Of a stretch of 40,689 nucleotides of DNA, positions 8,808-36,586 are shown piece after piece (positions within the stretch are counted from its first letter, which is position 1; each line of letters begins with the position of its first letter). The stretch covers positions 1 through 40,689 of the forward strand of contig JAJZCB010000024.1 of assembly GCA_021846285.1 (NCBI GenBank), read 5' to 3'. The translations under genes were made by a program, and so were the position numbers. This DNA comes from Bacillota bacterium (lineage in GTDB: Bacteria > Bacillota > Bacilli > Alicyclobacillales > SLC66). The notes under the pieces were generated by a model that did not search any database, was not told the origin of the DNA, and worked only from the letters and a program-made list of their open reading frames with translations.

Positions 8808-9719
8808 TTAAGACAAAGTACTACATGTACTTTGTAACGCATGGCTTGGCAATTGCCTCTCAGCGAATCGATCACGAATAAACATGGCTGACTCCATTAG
8901 AGGCTCATAATCAATGTCCGTTCGTATATCCATACCCTTCAACATATAAATCAAATCCTCAGTAGTAATGTTTCCTGCGGCGCCTGGTGCGTATGGGCAT
9001 CCTCCAAGTCCACCAATGGCAGAATCAAATTTAAAAACTCCATACTCTAAACCGGTTAAGACATTTGCCAATCCTGTACCTCTTGTGTCGTGAAAGTGTA
9101 AAGACACTCTATCAGAGTTGACTAATTTTAACGCTAGATCAAGGAACTTTGAAACTTGACGTGGAGTGGACACCCCGATTGTGTCAGCAAAAGCAATTTC
9201 ATGCACTCCTCCCTCCAACAAGATTTGTGCAATGCCCATCGTTTTATCAAAAGGTATATGCCCTTCATAAGGGCAACCAAACACGGTGGAAATATATGCC
9301 CTGACGGAGAGTCCTTCGGATAACGCACGTTGACAAACATCTCTACAATTGTTCAGTGAATCCTTGATCGATCGGTTGAGATTTTTATGATTGTGGGACT
9401 CACTTGCAGAAAGAAATATGACCACCTCATCCACATCTGCTTTAAATGCTTGTTCGAGACCCTTTACATTCGGAACCAACGCGGCATAGGTGACTCCTTT
9501 GACTCTTCGGATTTTTCGAAATACTTGTAAAGCATCCGCTAAAGGCGGAATCCATTTGGAACTAACAAACGAAGATACCTCAATGTAATCCAACCCTGTT
9601 TCACTTAATTGATCAATCCAAACCACTTTATCATCCGTGGATAAAATCTTCGATTCATTTTGCAACCCATCCCGCGGTCCTACTTCCCGAATGAAAACTC
9701 GTTCAGGTATCACGGACAC
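8808..9719 (-). CDS. HMG-CoA lyase family enzyme
   Basis: A 304-residue TIM-barrel lyase, the length of Bacillus YngG. HMG-CoA lyases split 3-hydroxy-3-methylglutaryl-CoA to acetyl-CoA and acetoacetate. The signature EVGPRDGLQNE supplies the metal-binding D17 and catalytic R16, SLHFHDTRG gives metal ligands H208 and H210, GGLGGCPYAPGA has the catalytic loop Cys (C241), and N250 follows. All key residues are intact. The frame is open to 9770 but that overlaps the upstream gene; GTG 9719 has GGGGG eight bases upstream and leaves the normal N-terminus. Related enzymes cleave citramalyl-CoA or isohexenylglutaryl-CoA, so the exact thioester is open. No carboxylase genes for leucine breakdown are nearby. 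Confidence 0.87.
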   Translation of the reverse strand: MSVIPERVFIREVGPRDGLQNESKILSTDDKVVWIDQLSETGLDYIEVSSFVSSKWIPPLADALQVFRKIRRVKGVTYAALVPNVKGLEQAFKADVDEVVIFLSASESHNHKNLNRSIKDSLNNCRDVCQRALSEGLSVRAYISTVFGCPYEGHIPFDKTMGIAQILLEGGVHEIAFADTIGVSTPRQVSKFLDLALKLVNSDRVSLHFHDTRGTGLANVLTGLEYGVFKFDSAIGGLGGCPYAPGAAGNITTEDLIYMLKGMDIRTDIDYEPLMESAMFIRDRFAERQLPSHALQSTCSTLS

Positions 9720-9741
9720 AAAACATACCCCCGTTAAAAAA

Positions 9742-10893
9742 TTAATATGACCTTGGTAATCCAAGAACATGTTCAGCGATAAATGACAAAATCAAGTTTG
9801 TGGAAATCGGAGCGACTTGATACAGACGCGTCTCTCTAAATTTCCGCTCTATATCGTACTCTTCTGCAAATCCGAATCCCCCGTGGGTTTGCAAGGCTAC
9901 ATTAGCTGCTTCCCAAGAAGCGTCTGCAGCAAGCAGTTTAGCCATATTAGCCTCGGCGCCACATGGTTTCCCTTCGTCAAATAACTGTGCGGCCCGATAA
10001 CGCATTAGGTCTGCAGCCTCTACATTTACATGCGCCCGGGCAATGGGAAATTGAATACCTTGGTTTTGCCCTATCGGTCTACCGAATACAATCCTTTGAC
10101 CGGCGTACTTGGTTGCCCTGTCCACAAACCAACGACCGTCGCCGATACATTCCGCTGCAATTAAAATTCGTTCAGCATTCATCCCGTCCAAGATATAATG
10201 AAATCCTTTTCCCTCCTCACCGATTAGGTTGTCAACGGGAACTTCTAAGTTATCAAAATAAATTTCAGTCGTTGCGTGATTCATCATTGTCCGAATAGGA
10301 CGAATGGTCATTCCGTTACCCAAAGACTTTTTAATGTCTACCAATAACACAGACAAACCATGAGTTCTACGTTGTACCTCCTTTAAGGGTGTCGTCCGAA
10401 CAAGAAGTATCATCAAGTCTGAAAATTGAGAGCGGGAAATAAACACTTTTTGACCATTGACGACATAGCGATCACCTTTTTGTTCAGCCGTTGTCTTTAG
10501 TTGCGTCGTATCCGTTCCAGTGTCAGGTTCTGTAACACCGAATGCCTGAAGACGCAAATTGCCATTAGCTATTTTGGGTAGATACTCTTCTTTCTGTACC
10601 TTCGAACCATGTCTCAACAGTGTTCCCATGGTGTACATTTGGGCATGACAAGCTCCAGCATTTCCTCCGGAACGATTGATCTCTTCAAGTATGATCGAGG
10701 CTTCGGTTATTCCATACCCTGCTCCACCATACTCTTCTGGAATCAACGCAGCCAGAAAACCGGAATCCGTCAAAGTGTTTACAAATTCCTCCGGATATTG
10801 GTGATTTGCATCGACTTTCCGCCAATATTCATCTGAAAACTTGCTACACATTTTTTGAACAGCCTTGCGCAAATCCTCGTGGAGTTCGTTCAT
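9742..10893 (-). CDS. Acyl-CoA dehydrogenase, catalytic base probably at the IVD/LCAD position
   Basis: A 383-residue flavoprotein that desaturates acyl-CoA at the alpha-beta carbons, passing electrons to ETF. The substrate and FAD signatures are present: FGVTEPDTGTDTTQLKTTA, NGQKVFISRS, and GGFGFAEEYDIERKFRETR. The usual catalytic Glu of the YEGT motif near the C-terminus is absent; the aligned text is YQVAPISTN. A Glu (E241, in GMNAERILIA) occupies the alternative position used by isovaleryl-CoA and long-chain acyl-CoA dehydrogenases, so the base is probably there, which suits branched substrates. It is 67 bases after the hydratase gene and 22 before the HMG-CoA-lyase-like gene. No etfAB genes are in the window. 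Confidence 0.9.
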   Translation of the reverse strand: MNELHEDLRKAVQKMCSKFSDEYWRKVDANHQYPEEFVNTLTDSGFLAALIPEEYGGAGYGITEASIILEEINRSGGNAGACHAQMYTMGTLLRHGSKVQKEEYLPKIANGNLRLQAFGVTEPDTGTDTTQLKTTAEQKGDRYVVNGQKVFISRSQFSDLMILLVRTTPLKEVQRRTHGLSVLLVDIKKSLGNGMTIRPIRTMMNHATTEIYFDNLEVPVDNLIGEEGKGFHYILDGMNAERILIAAECIGDGRWFVDRATKYAGQRIVFGRPIGQNQGIQFPIARAHVNVEAADLMRYRAAQLFDEGKPCGAEANMAKLLAADASWEAANVALQTHGGFGFAEEYDIERKFRETRLYQVAPISTNLILSFIAEHVLGLPRSY

Positions 10894-30977: not shown

Positions 30978-31682
30978 ATGAAACAGATCATCGCACTCGG
31001 AGGCGGCGGATTCTCCATGGAACCGGACAATCCGCTGCTCGACCGCTATATCTTGAAACAGTCAGGCAAAGACAGACCCAAAGTCTGTTTCATTGGAACG
31101 GCCAGCGGCGACAGCGAGGGATACATCGAACGCTTTTACCGAGCATTTGAACAGCATGACTGCGAACCCGCTCATCTGTCGCTGTTTCGCCCGCCCACCC
31201 TCGATCTTGAGGACTTCGTACTGGATCAGCACGTGGTCTACGTGGGCGGCGGAAACACCAAGAATCTCTTGGCCCTCTGGCGCGAGTGGAACATGGATCG
31301 GATCTTGCGCACCGCGTGGGATCAAGGCATCGTGCTGTCCGGTGTGAGCGCAGGCGCCCTCTGCTGGTTTCAAGAAGGCCTCACGGACTCTTACGGCGCA
31401 CAACTCATGACGATCGAAGGTCTCGGATTTCTACCAGGCAGCCATTGCCCGCACTACGACGGAGAGGTGGAACGGCGACCCGCTTTTCATCGTTTGCTGA
31501 CGTCAGGCGAGATCGGTGATGGGCTCGCTGCCGACGACGGCGCCGGTCTGCACTTTATCGGAACAGACCTGCATACTGTCGTGAGTTCACGTCCGAACAG
31601 TAGAGCATTTCGACTTCGCCTTCAGGCAGGACGCGCCGTCGAGGAAGAACTCACTCCGACCTATCTGGGAGATCCGAACTGA
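30978..31682 (+). CDS. pepE: Peptidase E (S51 family) dipeptidase
   Basis: A 234-residue cytoplasmic serine peptidase. Family S51 enzymes cleave aspartyl dipeptides or cyanophycin dipeptides. The nucleophile elbow is GVSAGALCW (S124), YVGGGNTKNLL (88-98) is the preceding conserved turn, and H in GSHCPHYDGE with D in ADDGAGLHF fits the rest of the active site. The length is that of standard PepE. ATG 30978 has GGAGAGGAG with good spacing. It stands on the same strand as the ApbE cluster but 194 bases ahead of it, so operon membership is doubtful. Whether it hydrolyses Asp-X or another dipeptide is not known. Confidence 0.85.
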   Translation: MKQIIALGGGGFSMEPDNPLLDRYILKQSGKDRPKVCFIGTASGDSEGYIERFYRAFEQHDCEPAHLSLFRPPTLDLEDFVLDQHVVYVGGGNTKNLLALWREWNMDRILRTAWDQGIVLSGVSAGALCWFQEGLTDSYGAQLMTIEGLGFLPGSHCPHYDGEVERRPAFHRLLTSGEIGDGLAADDGAGLHFIGTDLHTVVSSRPNSRAFRLRLQAGRAVEEELTPTYLGDPN

Positions 31683-31876: not shown

Positions 31877-32845
31877 ATGAAAATAGAACAGACCTTTCGC
31901 AAGATGGCTTCGCCCTTCACGATTCGCATTGACGTTTCCGCTGAGGCGGCGTACGAACTGAACATAGAGCGGCTCCGATCCGATCTCGAAGAAGAGACCC
32001 GAGCGATCGAACACTGTTTTTCGCGTTTCGAATCAACCAGCGAATTGACAAGATTGAATGCGCGGATCGGCCAGGTGGTGGAAGTGTCCGGGCGATTCCA
32101 GCAGGTTCTCCATCTGGCAGAGAAGGCGCACAGGATTACGGCAGGGGCGTTCGACCCTCGCGTCTTACGTCATCTGGACCGGTTGGGATATTCCGGCGCC
32201 CCGCTCCCTCGGGAGGTGCTGCAAGAAACACCCGCAGGATCTGCGAAAGATCCGTTGCTCATATGGCGCGGAGAACGGATTGTCGAACTGCCGGCGCCGA
32301 TTGATTTGGGCGGCATCGTGAAAGGGTACGCCGCGGACTGTTTGGCGGACCTGATTGAGTCGCGGATTCCGGAACCGCTCCTGGCAGGCTTCATCGTCAA
32401 TGCTGGCGGTGACGTGGTCCTCAGGGGATCACAGGAATCGGGAGAGCCATGGAGCATCGGCGTTGAGAATCCATTTGAACCAGAGCGCATTCTGGCTGCG
32501 GTGTCCTTGCACGGAGAGAAACGATCTGTCTGCACGAGTTCCGTCTGGCGGAAATCATGGGAAGTGGAAGGGCGCAAAGTCCATCATTTGATTGATCCAA
32601 GGTCAGGTGAGCCTGTGACTTCCCTGATTCATTCGGTGACCGCGATGGCGCCCAGCGCAGCCTTTGCGGAAGTTCTGACGAAATTCGTGTTTGTACAAGG
32701 ATTCTTCCCCCCGGCCGAGGCCGCGTTTGGAGGGCCCCCGCACGTGTTCATCGTGAACGGCAATCGATCCCTGTTTGTGACTGGCGATTTCCGACCCTAT
32801 CTCTCCTGGGTGGACCCGGCCATGAACACAACAGTCCTGGGCTGA
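31877..32845 (+). CDS. apbE: FAD:protein FMN transferase (ApbE)
   Basis: A 322-residue flavin transferase. ApbE links FMN by a phosphoester to Ser/Thr of partner proteins using FAD, usually outside the cytoplasmic membrane. DLGGIVKGYAAD (143-154), VNAGGDVVLRG (174-184) and HHLIDPRSGEP (236-246) are the FAD and Mg signatures. The late Asp of the AxADAL motif is replaced by AAFAEVLTK with Glu265. There is no signal peptide or lipobox, unlike most ApbE proteins, so it may act in the cytoplasm. ATG 31877 has GAGGAGG 13 bases upstream. A ferric-reductase-like membrane protein and two small membrane-anchored proteins follow on the same strand; its target is not obvious. Confidence 0.88.
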   Translation: MKIEQTFRKMASPFTIRIDVSAEAAYELNIERLRSDLEEETRAIEHCFSRFESTSELTRLNARIGQVVEVSGRFQQVLHLAEKAHRITAGAFDPRVLRHLDRLGYSGAPLPREVLQETPAGSAKDPLLIWRGERIVELPAPIDLGGIVKGYAADCLADLIESRIPEPLLAGFIVNAGGDVVLRGSQESGEPWSIGVENPFEPERILAAVSLHGEKRSVCTSSVWRKSWEVEGRKVHHLIDPRSGEPVTSLIHSVTAMAPSAAFAEVLTKFVFVQGFFPPAEAAFGGPPHVFIVNGNRSLFVTGDFRPYLSWVDPAMNTTVLG

Positions 32846-32925
32846 CCCTTGCCGGACTTTCAAGATAGGGTACCCCCATACCCAGACCATTCTGTCCGTA
32901 TACTTACCAAAAAACGTATAGCAAG

Positions 32926-33675
32926 ATGACATCTCCCCTGAGTCGATACCAGAATCGTACAATGTCGCCAAAAGAAAATAGACAGGATGTGATCATTGTG
33001 CGAAAACAGGCAGTAAAATCAGGCTCCTCCATGGAACCGATATGGGGCCAGATCGTCGTCTTCACTGTGATATGGATACTCGCGATTCTAAGCATTATGC
33101 TTATCGCACAGCTGTCCTCATTGGGACATCTGCGACTGTGGCTTGTCAGCCGGAGCGCCGCCCTTTCCTCATACGGCGCCCTCACCTTGGTGGTTATGAC
33201 AGGGTTGATGCTCAGTCACCCTGCCAACAAGCTGGACTGGAAGCTGTCGCGCTGGCTATTCCCGTGGCACCGGGCCCTGTTGGTCGTATTCTTTGCGCTG
33301 TTGAGTGTGCATCTCACATTCACGGGGCTGGATCCCAAATCCGGTGTGGGATTTGCCCAGTTCCCCTTCCCAATTCAGGCGAAGTACCATCCCGTGGCGA
33401 TGATTACCGGGAGTTTTTCTCTGTATCTGCTGATTCTGATCGCGGTGACCGCAACCATGCGTAAAACCTTTCGCACTCGATGGCTGAGCATTCATCGACT
33501 TTCAACAGTTTGCTGGATGGGCGTCACCCTGCACGGGATCTGGGGCGGCACAGACACATCCAGCCTGCATGGTCTCTATTTGTTGTCCACGATATCCGTT
33601 ATCCTGACTTACGCGTGGAGATCATGGACCGCAAGACAGGTTCAACGTCCAGGCGCCATTGAAAATACCAAATAA
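32926..33675 (+). CDS. Ferric-reductase-like transmembrane heme protein
   Basis: About 225-249 residues with six membrane helices. Two histidine pairs lie in the third and fifth helices: H115/H129 (WHRALLVVFFALLSVHL) and H190/H203 (SIHRLSTVCWMGVTLHG), spaced 14 and 13 residues, the bis-heme pattern of ferric-reductase-like and MsrQ-like domains. Such domains move electrons across the membrane and here lack a NAD(P)H domain. The start is unsettled: ATG 32926 and ATG 32962 have no clear SD, whereas GTG 32998 has AGGA ten bases ahead. It lies between apbE and two small anchored proteins, suggesting an extracytoplasmic flavin-heme electron path. Confidence 0.78.
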   Translation: MTSPLSRYQNRTMSPKENRQDVIIVRKQAVKSGSSMEPIWGQIVVFTVIWILAILSIMLIAQLSSLGHLRLWLVSRSAALSSYGALTLVVMTGLMLSHPANKLDWKLSRWLFPWHRALLVVFFALLSVHLTFTGLDPKSGVGFAQFPFPIQAKYHPVAMITGSFSLYLLILIAVTATMRKTFRTRWLSIHRLSTVCWMGVTLHGIWGGTDTSSLHGLYLLSTISVILTYAWRSWTARQVQRPGAIENTK

Positions 33676-33705
33676 ACCACCCCAAAAAGGAGAGTGCGCT
33701 CTATC

Positions 33706-34176
33706 GTGATCTATAAAAAATGGATCGCCTTGGTCGTCAGTGCGGGTTTTGTGGGAGTCGTATCACGCTCCCTCCTTCAGGCGCCGGTTCCAGTTCAGGC
33801 CTCCAGCCAGCTGTCGGATTCGAATGTGAACAGGTTGCAGGCCGTAAGCAGTCGAGTGACGGAGTTAAGTCTGGAGCTCTCACAACTCGAATCGACACTA
33901 CAGCGCACACAATCGGCCAGTGTTTCTGAAGCCAGGCAAATGCAGCAACTCAGCCTGCGCGTCAACAGCGTGGCTTCCTCCGTTCAATCCGCTTTGAGTC
34001 AGTCTGCACAAATCGTCTACGCGCCACGAGTGCAACGAGTGATTGAGACTCCAAAGGTGATACAAAGAGAAGTCGTCTCAAAGTCGGCGCAGCCGTCGGT
34101 GCATACCGTGACGAAAGCTTCAGGAACGCATGCAGACGATGACTCGGGCGGCGGCAGTGGATCTGGCGATAATTAA
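33706..34176 (+). CDS. Small membrane-anchored coiled-coil protein with PSVxTVTxASG tail
   Basis: I recognise no family. The 156-residue product begins with a basic residue pair and a hydrophobic segment (WIALVVSAGFVGVV), a signal anchor, then a helical coiled-coil region of about 65 residues (leucine and valine heptads in VTELSLELSQLESTLQ). After RVQRVIETPKVIQREVV comes a Ser/Thr tail with PSVHTVTKASG, then an acidic Asp/Gly/Ser end. GTG 33706 is preceded by AAGGAG with twelve-base spacing; GTG 33694 is too close to it. It follows the heme protein by 30 bases. The outside location and the tail shared with the next gene suggest a surface or electron-transfer accessory role. Confidence 0.6.
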   Translation: MIYKKWIALVVSAGFVGVVSRSLLQAPVPVQASSQLSDSNVNRLQAVSSRVTELSLELSQLESTLQRTQSASVSEARQMQQLSLRVNSVASSVQSALSQSAQIVYAPRVQRVIETPKVIQREVVSKSAQPSVHTVTKASGTHADDDSGGGSGSGDN

Positions 34177-34188
34177 GGAGGGTCTGCG

Positions 34189-34638
34189 ATGGTCAGGTAT
34201 CATCTGCTTGGATTGGGTTTGGGAGTCGTCATGTTAGGTTCCAGTTTAGATGTCCTGCTGACCAATGCTTCTCATGAGGCGTCCCACAGTATATCAAACG
34301 GCCAATCACAGCAGTTGCTGGCGTATTGGGATACGGAGCTGAAGCAAGACGCCACTCTGATCAGCTATACAAAACGTGTCATTCAGAGCGAACAGACGCA
34401 GTTGCGCCAAACCACGGCGGCAATCGGCGCCCTAAACGCTGAGTTGATAAAACTGCAAACGCTTGCGAGTCGATCCAAATCTGGCCTGCATGTGACGCCG
34501 ACTGCCTACCATTCGCAACCGCTTCCCGCTGCCACAACCGTGACGGTCTCAGCCCCCCCGATGACTGTTTCACCTCCGCCCGCCACGACTTCCGGACCGC
34601 CGTCCGTCCAAACCGTGACCTCTGCTTCGGGCGGTTGA
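34189..34638 (+). CDS. Second membrane-anchored coiled-coil protein with PSVxTVTxASG tail
   Basis: A 149-residue protein of unknown family. Residues 4-27 are a hydrophobic signal anchor. Residues about 40-95 are helical and coiled-coil-like (WDTELKQDATLISYTKRVIQ, then IGALNAELIKLQ). The rest is a Pro/Thr/Ser/Val-rich tail (TTVTVSAPPMTVSPPP) that ends in PSVQTVTSASGG, almost the same as the tail motif of the preceding gene. ATG 34189 has AAGGAGGG with good spacing and starts twelve bases after that gene, so they are co-transcribed. The repeated architecture suggests duplicated or partner subunits. It is the last + strand gene of the cluster. Confidence 0.62.
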   Translation: MVRYHLLGLGLGVVMLGSSLDVLLTNASHEASHSISNGQSQQLLAYWDTELKQDATLISYTKRVIQSEQTQLRQTTAAIGALNAELIKLQTLASRSKSGLHVTPTAYHSQPLPAATTVTVSAPPMTVSPPPATTSGPPSVQTVTSASGG

Positions 34639-34707: not shown

Positions 34708-36117
34708 CTACATAGGGGCGACTTTTACGCCGCGAACATAGAATTGTACGGTTTTGCAGCGATCGCTCAGACTTGGGCCAAACGACGAGAGACCCAGCTT
34801 CGCCACAAGCTGCTCCAACTCCGTGCAGAGCGTGTCCAGGTCTGGGGTAGTGTCCTGAACCATGCCGATGAACTGGAGTTGCAGTCCTGCCTCTTCAAAC
34901 AGACGGGCGATCTCCAGTAGAGTGAAGAAACGCACATGGGTCCTGTCCAGAATGCCAGACTCCTGATACGTCCAGCATCCTTCCAGAAGTCCTTTGAGAA
35001 CGCTGGCATGGCCGACGTTCGGAATGGACGCGACGACGTGCCCGTTCGGTTTTAAATATGAGGTCAAATGACGGAGCGCGGCGACTGGATCGATCAGATG
35101 CTCGAGAACATCGGCAAACACCAGCGCGTCAAACCAACCAGGGGGATGGGGCAGGCGCATCGCGGTCGCGTCTCCAATCCACACTTCGTCGAGCACAGTG
35201 CGTGCGTCAACGGCCGCCCGTTCATCGTATTCTATCCCCGCAACATAGCCGGCGCCGCGATTCTTTAACGTTAGTCCCAACCCTCCGCAAGCACATCCGA
35301 CATCCAGTACTCGAGCCGCATCTTGCGGAACCAGCTCCGCGAGATCTTCTCGCATCCACAGACTATACTGAGGGTTTATCCCCCATTTCGAATGAAACCG
35401 TCGCAGATTCGCCTGCAACAAGTCGCCATAGTTCGGGTTGACGCGTTGACTGACGCTGCCGTAGTGATGGACGAATGTGTCAGCCGCGACAACCAGGCGG
35501 TATCCGGCTCGTCGAATGCGCATGCAGTAATCGTCGTCTTCAAAATTGCCCTGGCCAAAATCTTCATCAAATCCGCCGAGTTCGTCATAGACGCTTCGCC
35601 GGATCAACATGCAGAATCCAACAATCCGTAGAGCATAGAACCACCTGGATGGATTCGGTTGGTTATGTTCGCGTGCGAATTGCTGCATGTCTTCCATCGA
35701 CGTGTACGATACGGCGTGCAATTGAACGCCGGAGACGTAATTTGAGATGGGGCCCACCGCTCCGTGACTGGGGTCGCTGTGCAAGCAAATCAAGAGATTA
35801 TCGAGCCAGTTGCGGCTGACAACCACGTCGTTGTTCAAGATGACGAACTGCTCTCCCTGCGCCGCTTCCATCCCTTGATTGCACGCCTTGGGAAATCCGA
35901 AGTTCGCTGGATTTTCAATGACTGTCACCTCTGGATAGGCGCGCAGCGCCGCAACCGTTTCGTCGCTGGATCCGTTGTCGACGATGATGAGTTCATAAGG
36001 GCAGGTCGTGAAGCGGCGAATGCTTTCTATGCACTGGCGGGTATATTCCCATTGATTGTAGGTGGGAATGATGATGCTGGTCAACGGCTGCAGCACATCG
36101 ATGCGATCGGACTTCAT
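34708..36117 (-). CDS. Bifunctional GT2 glycosyltransferase / SAM methyltransferase
   Basis: A 469-residue fusion. Residues about 10-240 are a GT-A glycosyltransferase: TSIIIPTYNQWEYT, LIIVDNGSSDETV, FVILNNDVVV with the metal-binding acidic motif, and GGFDEDFGQGNFEDDDYCMR, a rhamnosyl-type acceptor region. After a short linker, residues about 270-440 form a class I methyltransferase: VLDVGCACGGLGL (motif I), YDALVFADVLEHL-type motif post-I, and KPNGHVVASIPNVGH. It probably adds a sugar and methylates it. ATG 36117 has GGAGGAACG upstream; the frame to 36204 overlaps the preceding gene. It closes the glycan operon. The acceptor is unknown. Confidence 0.87.
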   Translation of the reverse strand: MKSDRIDVLQPLTSIIIPTYNQWEYTRQCIESIRRFTTCPYELIIVDNGSSDETVAALRAYPEVTVIENPANFGFPKACNQGMEAAQGEQFVILNNDVVVSRNWLDNLLICLHSDPSHGAVGPISNYVSGVQLHAVSYTSMEDMQQFAREHNQPNPSRWFYALRIVGFCMLIRRSVYDELGGFDEDFGQGNFEDDDYCMRIRRAGYRLVVAADTFVHHYGSVSQRVNPNYGDLLQANLRRFHSKWGINPQYSLWMREDLAELVPQDAARVLDVGCACGGLGLTLKNRGAGYVAGIEYDERAAVDARTVLDEVWIGDATAMRLPHPPGWFDALVFADVLEHLIDPVAALRHLTSYLKPNGHVVASIPNVGHASVLKGLLEGCWTYQESGILDRTHVRFFTLLEIARLFEEAGLQLQFIGMVQDTTPDLDTLCTELEQLVAKLGLSSFGPSLSDRCKTVQFYVRGVKVAPM

Positions 36118-36172
36118 TCTTCGTTCCTCCATTTTGGTTGCTCGGTCATTGTAACCGTCGTGAAATGTCAGT

Positions 36173-36586
36173 TCAGATGATGCGCAAGGGATCAGTCTGT
36201 TCATACAGGCAATTGTCGGTGTCGGCGTTCAGGAGGGCGGTGCGGATTTCATAAGTTCCGGCTTTACTCGGAACGAAATTTGTTATTTCCCAATAATTTC
36301 GGATGGTGTCCCAGAATTCGTGCCCGACCAGAAAAGGGGACATGCGGAGATGAGCTTCCACTTCGCCGTCCGGATCGACAATCTGGATTTCTTCCACGCA
36401 GCGCAGGGGTTGCTCAAGCGAACAACACCATTCGTGTACAATGTAAAATGGAGATGGAATGCGTCGGTCAATTTCAAACAACCAATCGATGAGCGAGGTT
36501 TTGTCGGTCTCATGCTGTACTTCCCGACACAGAAGGCTCGTTTGCAACCGAATGAACAATAGATCCTGAATGTTTCCGAGCGTCAT
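36173..36586 (-). CDS. Unknown 137-residue protein of the glycosyltransferase cluster
   Basis: I do not recognise it with confidence. The product is mainly beta in pattern: FYIVHEWCCSLEQPLRC, then EIQIVDPDGEV, then FLVGHEFWDTIRNYWEITNF, ending with AGTYEIRTALLN. An exposed strand ending in PDGE and a G-x-Y-E-I-R strand suggest a small immunoglobulin-like sandwich. No signal peptide. ATG 36586 overlaps the preceding glycosyltransferase stop as ATGA, so it is made with it; the frame could run to 36667 but the overlap favours 36586. It is 55 bases ahead of the fusion gene. Its place between glycosyltransferases suggests a binding or accessory part of the glycan pathway. Confidence 0.65.
   Translation of the reverse strand: MTLGNIQDLLFIRLQTSLLCREVQHETDKTSLIDWLFEIDRRIPSPFYIVHEWCCSLEQPLRCVEEIQIVDPDGEVEAHLRMSPFLVGHEFWDTIRNYWEITNFVPSKAGTYEIRTALLNADTDNCLYEQTDPLRII

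Follow-up and report, generated by a model that had tools for sequence, protein, structure and literature searches.

The 40,689-nucleotide stretch analysed here (the window) is contig JAJZCB010000024.1 of a Bacillota bacterium of the order Alicyclobacillales. It contains four genes that lie close together on the forward strand: apbE, which codes for an FAD:protein FMN transferase (FAD, flavin adenine dinucleotide; FMN, flavin mononucleotide), a gene for a six-helix membrane protein with two predicted heme sites, and two genes for small membrane-anchored proteins (Table 1). The four genes, the fold of the heme protein, its candidate ligands, and a conserved C-terminal motif that accompanies these genes in related genomes can be read directly from the sequence. 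An earlier note on this DNA had described a tightly spaced same-strand set of a signal-less ApbE having Glu for a late Asp, a six-helix bis-heme protein resembling ferric reductases and two membrane-anchored helical proteins, with no visible partner carrying an FMN-binding domain. This description stands: the intergenic gaps are 80, 18 and 12 bases, the ApbE N-terminus (MKIEQTFRKMASPFTIRID) contains no hydrophobic segment, and the other parts of it are borne out by the alignments, models and domain searches described below. What the note overlooked is that each small protein closely reproduces, near its C-terminus, the site at which ApbE attaches FMN.

Table 1. Features of the module in the window and in related loci (the latter prefixed by a locus identifier).
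Feature	Position	Strand	Basis or remark
apbE, FAD:protein FMN transferase, 322 amino acids, without signal peptide	31877..32845	+	PF02424, N-terminus, aligned active-site residues
Glu265 codon, at the place of the catalytic-triad Asp of ApbE	32669..32671	+	alignment
Lys269 codon	32681-32683	+	alignment; FMN_bind-linked ApbE has Thr there
Six-helix membrane protein, predicted bis-heme, ferric-reductase/NOX/STEAP-type fold	32926..33675	+	true start may be downstream
Four candidate heme-ligand His codons: H115 (33268), H129 (33310), H190 (33493), H203 (33532)	33268..33534	+	alignment A1
Small protein 1: N-terminal membrane anchor, long helix, flexible tail	33694..34176	+	likelier start 33706
Predicted flavinylation site H-T-V-T-K-A-S of small protein 1	34102..34122	+	FMN predicted on Ser143, codon 34120-34122
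Acidic/Gly/Ser extension THADDDSGGGSGSGDN after the motif of small protein 1	34126..34173	+	sequence
Small protein 2: N-terminal membrane anchor, helix, Pro/Thr-rich linker, flexible tail	34189..34638	+	helix and linker by eye
Predicted flavinylation site Q-T-V-T-S-A-S of small protein 2	34609..34629	+	FMN predicted on Ser147, codon 34627-34629
Extra anchored coiled-coil-like protein	L024:7213-7548, L025:6559-6882, L026:8598-8924, L027:7291-7602, L028:8943-9245		
Ser-ending anchored open reading frames, Actinomycetota/Chloroflexota	L165, L179, L196, L204, L206, L207, L209		
Peptidase S51 / cyanophycinase-like protein	30978-31682	+	194 bases upstream of apbE

The anchored, helical nature of the small proteins is seen in both sequences and in a structural model of the first (helix 3-27, helix 39-105 and an unstructured tail), which is of low confidence, with a predicted local distance difference test score (pLDDT) of 47.6. 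Because the sequence AAGGAG lies only 1 base before the GTG listed as the start of small protein 1, the GTG at 33706 is the likelier start. The two genes look to be real and under purifying selection, the rates of nonsynonymous and synonymous change (dN/dS) against the same-genus copy being 0.030/0.171 for the first and 0.015/0.101 for the second. Neither protein matches FMN_bind, DUF2271, DUF3570, Flavodoxin_4 or FMN_red at E 1, and the other small tail proteins scanned had no PF04205 among the matches listed. The published ApbE site is D-x-x-[ST]-G-A-[ST]; seven residues are enough for the enzyme and a terminal position is best, and among site mutants Asp-to-Ala had a minor effect, Gly-to-Ala or Ala-to-Val left about 50% flavinylation, and Ser was poorer than Thr (PMC12052999). 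The window tails match this site at positions 4, 6 and 7 (T, A and S in both), and Ser147 of small protein 2 lies two residues from the C-terminal end.

The tail is retained across the family of the window. Using the heme protein as query in 18 family genomes, we found it in 12 of them, at 15 places, and at all 14 places besides the window at least one small anchored protein has the tail. In L024, for instance, such a protein closes with VQAVTGAS, and in L026 the tail reads FQTMTGAS. These carriers adjoin the heme gene or, in L032, its neighbour apbE, and ApbE itself is adjacent at 8 of the 14 places. Outside the genus of the window the carriers have 21-33% identity to those of the window with the tail retained. 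In the alignments A4 and A5, whose rows were selected for carrying the tail, A142, S143 and G144 belong to the 12 invariant columns of A4 and Q141 and S147 to the 5 of A5, and the mean column entropy is 0.74 and 0.53 bits in the tail against 1.52 and 1.57 elsewhere in the small proteins.

For a count at the level of the order, we assembled 55 loci comprising the window, 14 others of its family and 40 of a second family (40 of its 48 places were fetched). The near set consisted of same-strand open reading frames (ORFs) that contained a hydrophobic stretch and lay no more than 1.2 kb from the heme and apbE genes, and the far set of ORFs of either strand more than 2.5 kb away, with spurious ORFs in both. 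An end of the form [ST]xA[ST] followed by at most two residues was present in 39/230 near and 6/619 far ORFs (Fisher 1e-17), and an exact [ST]xAS end in 29/230 and 1/619, the motif having been seen in loci before it was counted and the 40 second-family loci having been examined afterwards. The strict tail occurs in 36 of the 55 loci (12/15 in the window family, 24/40 in the second family), and a post hoc loosened reading, with the motif farther inside or Gly for Ala, raises this to 51/55. The motif lies farther from the end in L020, L021, L022, L069 and L070, Gly stands in place of Ala at the end in L067, L076, L077, L085, L087, L092, L099 and L104, and the ends TTSASRW of L094 and VTSAS of L097 belong to proteins below the hydrophobicity filter. 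No tail motif was found in L072 and L074 even on the loosened reading, while L075 and L088 are interrupted by contig ends.

In several loci the tail gene and the one after it overlap or abut, so the motif could in principle be a by-product of DNA features, such as a ribosome-binding site or the start of the overlapping gene, or of composition. We consider this extremely unlikely. Among 66 ORFs preselected for the tail, the motif lies no more than 30 residues from the end in 64, and every synonymous third position of the Ala and TCN Ser codons is used (GCT/GCG/GCA/GCC = 19/17/17/9; TCG/TCA/TCT/TCC = 24/14/14/11). Because these positions vary freely, selection acts on the protein and not on the DNA, and a gene-overlap artefact as the origin of the motif was rejected on this codon use. 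In addition, the motif also occurs 10-27 residues before the end (L020, L109, L116, L120), the strict end is found in just 6 of the 619 ORFs far from the module, and small gene 2 is the last gene of the window set: the long ORF that comes next (34708-36204) runs on the opposite strand, and the forward strand has only a mechanical ORF of 85 amino acids overlapping it.

The family and order loci also show other features of the small proteins. An extra anchored coiled-coil-like protein of about 100 amino acids without the tail, ending like LAQQGLIQL, precedes the tail gene in five loci (Table 1). A peptidoglycan-binding domain (PF01471) lies ahead of the tail in four of ten carriers scanned, all of the second family (L083, L091, L094, L103), and long Ser/Gly repeats precede it in L083, L090 and L097. 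His/Asp/Glu-rich ends continue after the motif in some relatives (L020, L073, L116, L120); speculatively, they might hold a metal near the flavin.

We then compared the distribution of ApbE with that of the heme protein and the FMN_bind domain in 59 genomes of the order (cut-offs E 0.001 for the heme protein, 0.1 for FMN_bind and 0.001 for ApbE). From 102 ApbE places, 100 were kept; a gene fragment (G050:C1:3097681) and a below-cut-off match (G056:C191) were dropped. Within 3 kb, 46 of the 100 have only the heme protein, 35 only FMN_bind, one both and 18 neither. FMN_bind was undetected in 20 of the 59 genomes, of which 19 have ApbE, and in all 19 ApbE adjoins the heme protein; in the twentieth (G008), ApbE, the heme protein and FMN_bind are all undetected. 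ApbE is single in 14 of the 19 genomes, and in all 11 of these inspected for neighbours (L020, L024, L076, L077, L079, L082, L086, L092, L097, L103, L104) [ST]x[AG]S stands at or close to the C-terminus of a small protein, with Ala in seven and Gly in four. Conversely, 13 genomes have ApbE without the heme module, 12 of them with ApbE beside FMN_bind. From this pattern, we infer that the heme module takes the place of an FMN_bind protein.

These counts bear on a choice that the earlier note had left between a flavin target of a new type and a partner coded elsewhere. The new target is favoured because the site-like tails are conserved and 19 genomes have a heme-adjacent ApbE with no detected FMN_bind; in these genomes a standard FMN-binding protein with an SGAT-type motif does not appear as the sole partner. 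The small proteins compared were all reached by way of heme or ApbE loci. A null search at E 0.001 had suggested that the window genome, too, is without FMN_bind, which was overturned at E 0.1 by its sole PF04205 match, on contig C7 and not on the window contig (C127). This protein (L033:4-852, ...IYIVSGATAST...; 21.8 bits, 22.6 with neighbours, 18.2 for the translated ORF) could be the one that the window ApbE serves, the small proteins then being unmodified structural or regulatory partners of the cytochrome. We find this improbable, since the contig C7 protein adjoins an ApbE of its own and an NqrB/RnfD-like gene, all 19 genomes mentioned have the heme-adjacent ApbE, and the conserved tails would be left unexplained. 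The contig C7 cluster (L033, G000:C7:1-10000, 4-2731) consists of the N-terminally hydrophobic FMN_bind-type protein, an ApbE without a hydrophobic N-terminus and an NqrB/RnfD-like protein (PF03116), and looks like an Nqr/Rnf-like flavinylation cluster.

The window ApbE itself matches PF02424 with E 3.5e-48 (164.9 bits, cut-off 25.6). The catalytic triad (Ser, His, Asp) was taken from PMC12052999 and transferred by alignment; Ser221 and His237 are invariant in all 76 ApbE rows from the fetched loci, at least four places being entered twice (L132/L137, L133/L138, L134/L139, L136/L140). The triad Asp is replaced by Glu265, the Glu for a late Asp of the earlier note; it aligns, in an A-[DE]-x3 stretch, with Asp of the FMN_bind-linked ApbE of L033 and of Thermotoga 1vrm, and the position was equated with that of the review (PMC12052999) by alignment and not by its residue numbering. 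Position 265 is Glu in 63 rows, Asp in 12 and Gly in one, and because Glu is so common it is no sign of decay in the window gene. Lys269 is shared by 72 of the 76 rows, the other four having Thr, and three of these four adjoin an FMN_bind gene (L033, L074 and the second ApbE of L075).

The prevalence of Glu265 and Lys269, together with the described FAD pyrophosphatase of the ApbE family (PMC4767422), raises the alternative that this enzyme hydrolyses FAD, as is reported for Treponema pallidum Ftp, or catalyses another reaction, with tails that bind it or are otherwise modified. We hold this to be very unlikely, given that Ser221 and His237 never vary, Asp240 is kept in 70 of the 76 rows, and tail-linked enzymes in L138, L140 and L145 retain Asp at position 265. 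In 61 of the 76 rows, fewer than 25 residues precede the first conserved motif, and the other 15 look over-extended and contain no stretch of signal-peptide hydrophobicity. Because of these short N-termini lacking a signal-like stretch, the window-type ApbE is probably cytosolic, and cytosolic ApbE is already known (PMC12052999). A third ApbE, of the Glu/Lys type (L034, G000:C74:5000-15571, 8812-10544) is followed directly by a response regulator, as judged by eye, and has no heme protein or visible tail gene beside it.

The AlphaFold2 model of the heme protein has six long helices (pLDDT 79.8). Its four candidate heme ligands, H115, H129, H190 and H203, are invariant in 15 of 15 homologs, and form one pair with a spacing of 14 residues and another with 13, in two of the modelled helices, as fits two stacked hemes. 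In a VIA-align comparison, NOX, DUOX and STEAP structures fill the top 13 rows (Z 11.5-12.6), followed by a designed helical protein at Z 11.2, and unrelated helical bundles can reach Z near 12; such matches should be read together with the invariant His, as helical folds score high by default. Foldseek returned nothing below E 0.001. The window protein has no Pfam match at E 0.01, while 5 of the 15 aligned members match Ferric_reduct (PF01794) at this threshold, the best with 4.8e-8. The N-terminus is uncertain, as the same-genus copy has a stop codon in that stretch. Taken together, the model and the alignment point to six helices and two heme sites, and the protein would be expected to hold heme, in agreement with the earlier description of a bis-heme ferric-reductase-like protein. 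In one relative (L023:7411-8325) the heme protein has an extra C-terminal segment resembling a further membrane helix and a coiled coil, and a tail gene of 87 amino acids follows it. In L020 (2962-4263) and L021 (8896-10197), the heme gene is directly preceded by a gene for a sensor histidine kinase of 433 amino acids, recognised by eye.

From these elements, we consider the locus to be probably a flavin-heme electron-export module, in which the two small anchored proteins, without a flavin-binding fold, are the carriers. The attachment of FMN, the topology, the heme content and the donor, direction and acceptor of the electrons are all inferred, and the most likely arrangement would be FMN on Ser143 and Ser147, outward-facing tails and hemes that reduce the tethered FMN. 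The signal-less ApbE would move FMN from FAD onto these serines in the C-terminal regions, either in the cytosol before export of the unfolded tail or at the membrane. The N-terminal helix would hold each carrier in the membrane with its tail outside, and the helical or low-complexity stretch would serve as a spacer or an oligomerising stalk. In most carriers seen, Lys or Arg lies ahead of the anchor helix, and because of this the tails are predicted to face outward by the positive-inside rule. Electrons would come from menaquinol, or from a different donor in the membrane or the cytosol, and pass through the two hemes to the tethered FMN, and from there to an outside acceptor, in these acidophiles plausibly Fe(III). 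A route from menaquinol to Fe(III) is plausible because menaquinone-7 (MK-7) is the sole quinone in Alicyclobacillaceae and both named genera of the window family reduce Fe(III) (PMC11123200).

We regard it as possible, on the unlikely side, that the tails carry FMN for a different purpose: repair of envelope proteins (MsrQ-like), making or sensing of reactive oxygen (NOX-like), or a signal to a two-component system. The fold is common to NOX and STEAP; a response regulator, recognised by eye, follows the heme or apbE gene in L024 and L026-L031 and apbE in L034; and modules of this type are also present in loci from Bacilli, Chloroflexi and Actinomycetota beyond the two named genera that reduce iron. 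The iron reduction of the two named family genera (PMC11123200) speaks for export instead, and no two-component gene was recognised among the neighbouring ORFs of the window. As for the regulators themselves, they lie downstream of the heme gene in L026, L028, L029, L030 and L031, all five with a sensor kinase, and downstream of apbE in L024 and L027, which suggests redox-controlled expression or signalling.

Several observations weigh against the export module with tail carriers. The window tails depart from the published site at positions 1 and 5 (H and K in the first small protein, Q and S in the second), the structural model of small protein 1 is of low confidence, and the window genome also codes for the FMN_bind protein of contig C7. 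ApbE is absent beside the heme gene at 6 of the 14 other family places, the order in which the motif was seen and counted tempers the enrichment, and the strict TGAS tail is exceptional in Actinomycetota and Chloroflexota loci (4/60, two of 30 in each). Furthermore, with an ApbE lacking a signal and tails predicted outside, either the loaded tails must be exported or ApbE must leave the cell. An unfolded tail bearing FMN could conceivably pass through SecYEG, a channel that Bonardi et al. (2011) reportedly probed with bulky conjugates.

A scan of named genomes gave 15 loci. Six are from Bacillota, including Sulfoacidibacillus thermotolerans and Ferroacidibacillus organovorans of the window's family; the other nine belong to Chloroflexi, Actinomycetota and unplaced metagenome-assembled genomes. 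A TGASG tail is present in four of these nine (L109, L110, L115, L116); the pattern was not found in L112, L113, L118 and L119, and L111 has only TTASG. Two genomes from a different Bacilli family (L120 and L155 being one, L121 the other) have the exact D-x-x-T-G-A-S on domain-less tails, VDTVTGAS being internal to one carrier and VDGITGAS terminal in another. Among 20 Bacilli loci beyond the order, 16 have a small N-anchored protein ending in Ser beside apbE (five by eye; L155 included), with tails such as THTRTRAS, YQSRTGAS and TRRS, and at this class level 11 of 20 have an anchored ORF that ends in [ST]x[AG]S or contains the motif. Of the remaining nine, five have the ends TRRS, TKRS, SRRS or HSS (L142, L148, L150, L152, L137), L154 and L156 end otherwise, and no clear Ser-ending anchored ORF was seen in L144 and L151. 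A looser look at 32 of the 60 Actinomycetota and Chloroflexota loci, which gives weaker evidence, revealed a Ser-ending anchored ORF beside the module in seven (Table 1). FMN_bind-like ends were found in none of the 60, with a pattern that was probably too strict and flanks of 1.5 kb.

From this wider set, we lean slightly towards the view that Bacillota, Chloroflexota and Actinomycetota have a large and so far unrecognised class of natural flavin carriers to which these tail proteins belong. Its members would be anchored to the membrane or wall, mostly disordered, present as one or two per locus, and flavinylated on a terminal or near-terminal Ser by a signal-less ApbE. The tethered flavin would swing between the cytochrome and the outside across the thick wall, in some cases with the help of a peptidoglycan-binding domain and long Ser/Gly linkers, and the class would explain part of the ‘orphan’ apbE genomes of 2021. 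Such orphan genomes remain, and further ApbE substrates are described as unidentified (Meheust et al. 2021, PMC8238504).

Two further sets of neighbours were noted. A secreted protein resembling, by eye, a copper amine oxidase N-terminal-type domain lies upstream of the small-protein, apbE and heme genes in L142 (3306-3920, cluster orientation) and L148 (3047-3718). In the window, the gene upstream of apbE codes for a Peptidase S51 or cyanophycinase-like protein on the same strand (Table 1); a promoter and terminator scan gave no excess over shuffles, and a plasmid search with small protein 1 gave no match.

The closest known relatives are the MsrQ-like flavinylation systems, in which a six-helix cytochrome with two hemes and the ferric-reductase fold likewise adjoins apbE and for which a similar path from the membrane to an extracytosolic flavin is proposed (Meheust et al. 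2021, PMC8238504). They differ in that the proposed FMN carrier of the window is a domain-less tail, the window ApbE has no signal, and the usual gene for an FMN-binding domain is not in the cluster. The Flavin-tag (Tong et al. 2021, as cited in PMC12052999) likewise relies on a seven-residue terminal motif being enough for ApbE; it is engineered, whereas the window case seems natural and matches the motif less well. In FMN_red proteins (Huang et al. 2024, PMC11334425), one or two sites on an unstructured C-terminal extension are flavinylated, as proposed here, but the extension is attached to a folded flavin-binding domain, which was not detected in the window proteins. The DUF4405 flavinylation-associated cytochromes, also of Firmicutes, are alike as membrane cytochromes co-occurring with apbE (PMC11334425). 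The window protein, in contrast, has no DUF4405 match at E 1, and one homolog gave a sub-threshold match at E 0.052. Unlike the window module, Listeria has a secreted enzyme, FmnB, and in PplA a lipoprotein that contains FMN-binding domains. The locus for extracellular electron transfer that encodes them resembles ours in being Gram-positive and in pairing an ApbE-type enzyme with an extracellular protein bearing covalent FMN (PMC12052999).

In summary, the module would act like an MsrQ-like flavinylation system in which domain-less tails replace the partner with the FMN-binding domain. What is new is the carrier and not the principle of electron transfer, as the combination of ApbE with an MsrQ-like cytochrome is already known; no description of domain-less tail carriers was found in the literature searched, with supplements, subscription journals and preprints outside the search. 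The locus and its relatives provide precise candidate ApbE substrates with predicted residues. If the reading is true, a covalent flavin can act as a biological electron carrier without a flavin-binding pocket, and Gram-positive bacteria have a minimal flavin-on-tether route from membrane hemes outward; it would then need explaining how an ApbE in the cytosol reaches targets that are exported. If confirmed, the tails would be a new class of flavin carrier, of a design that recurs in relatives.

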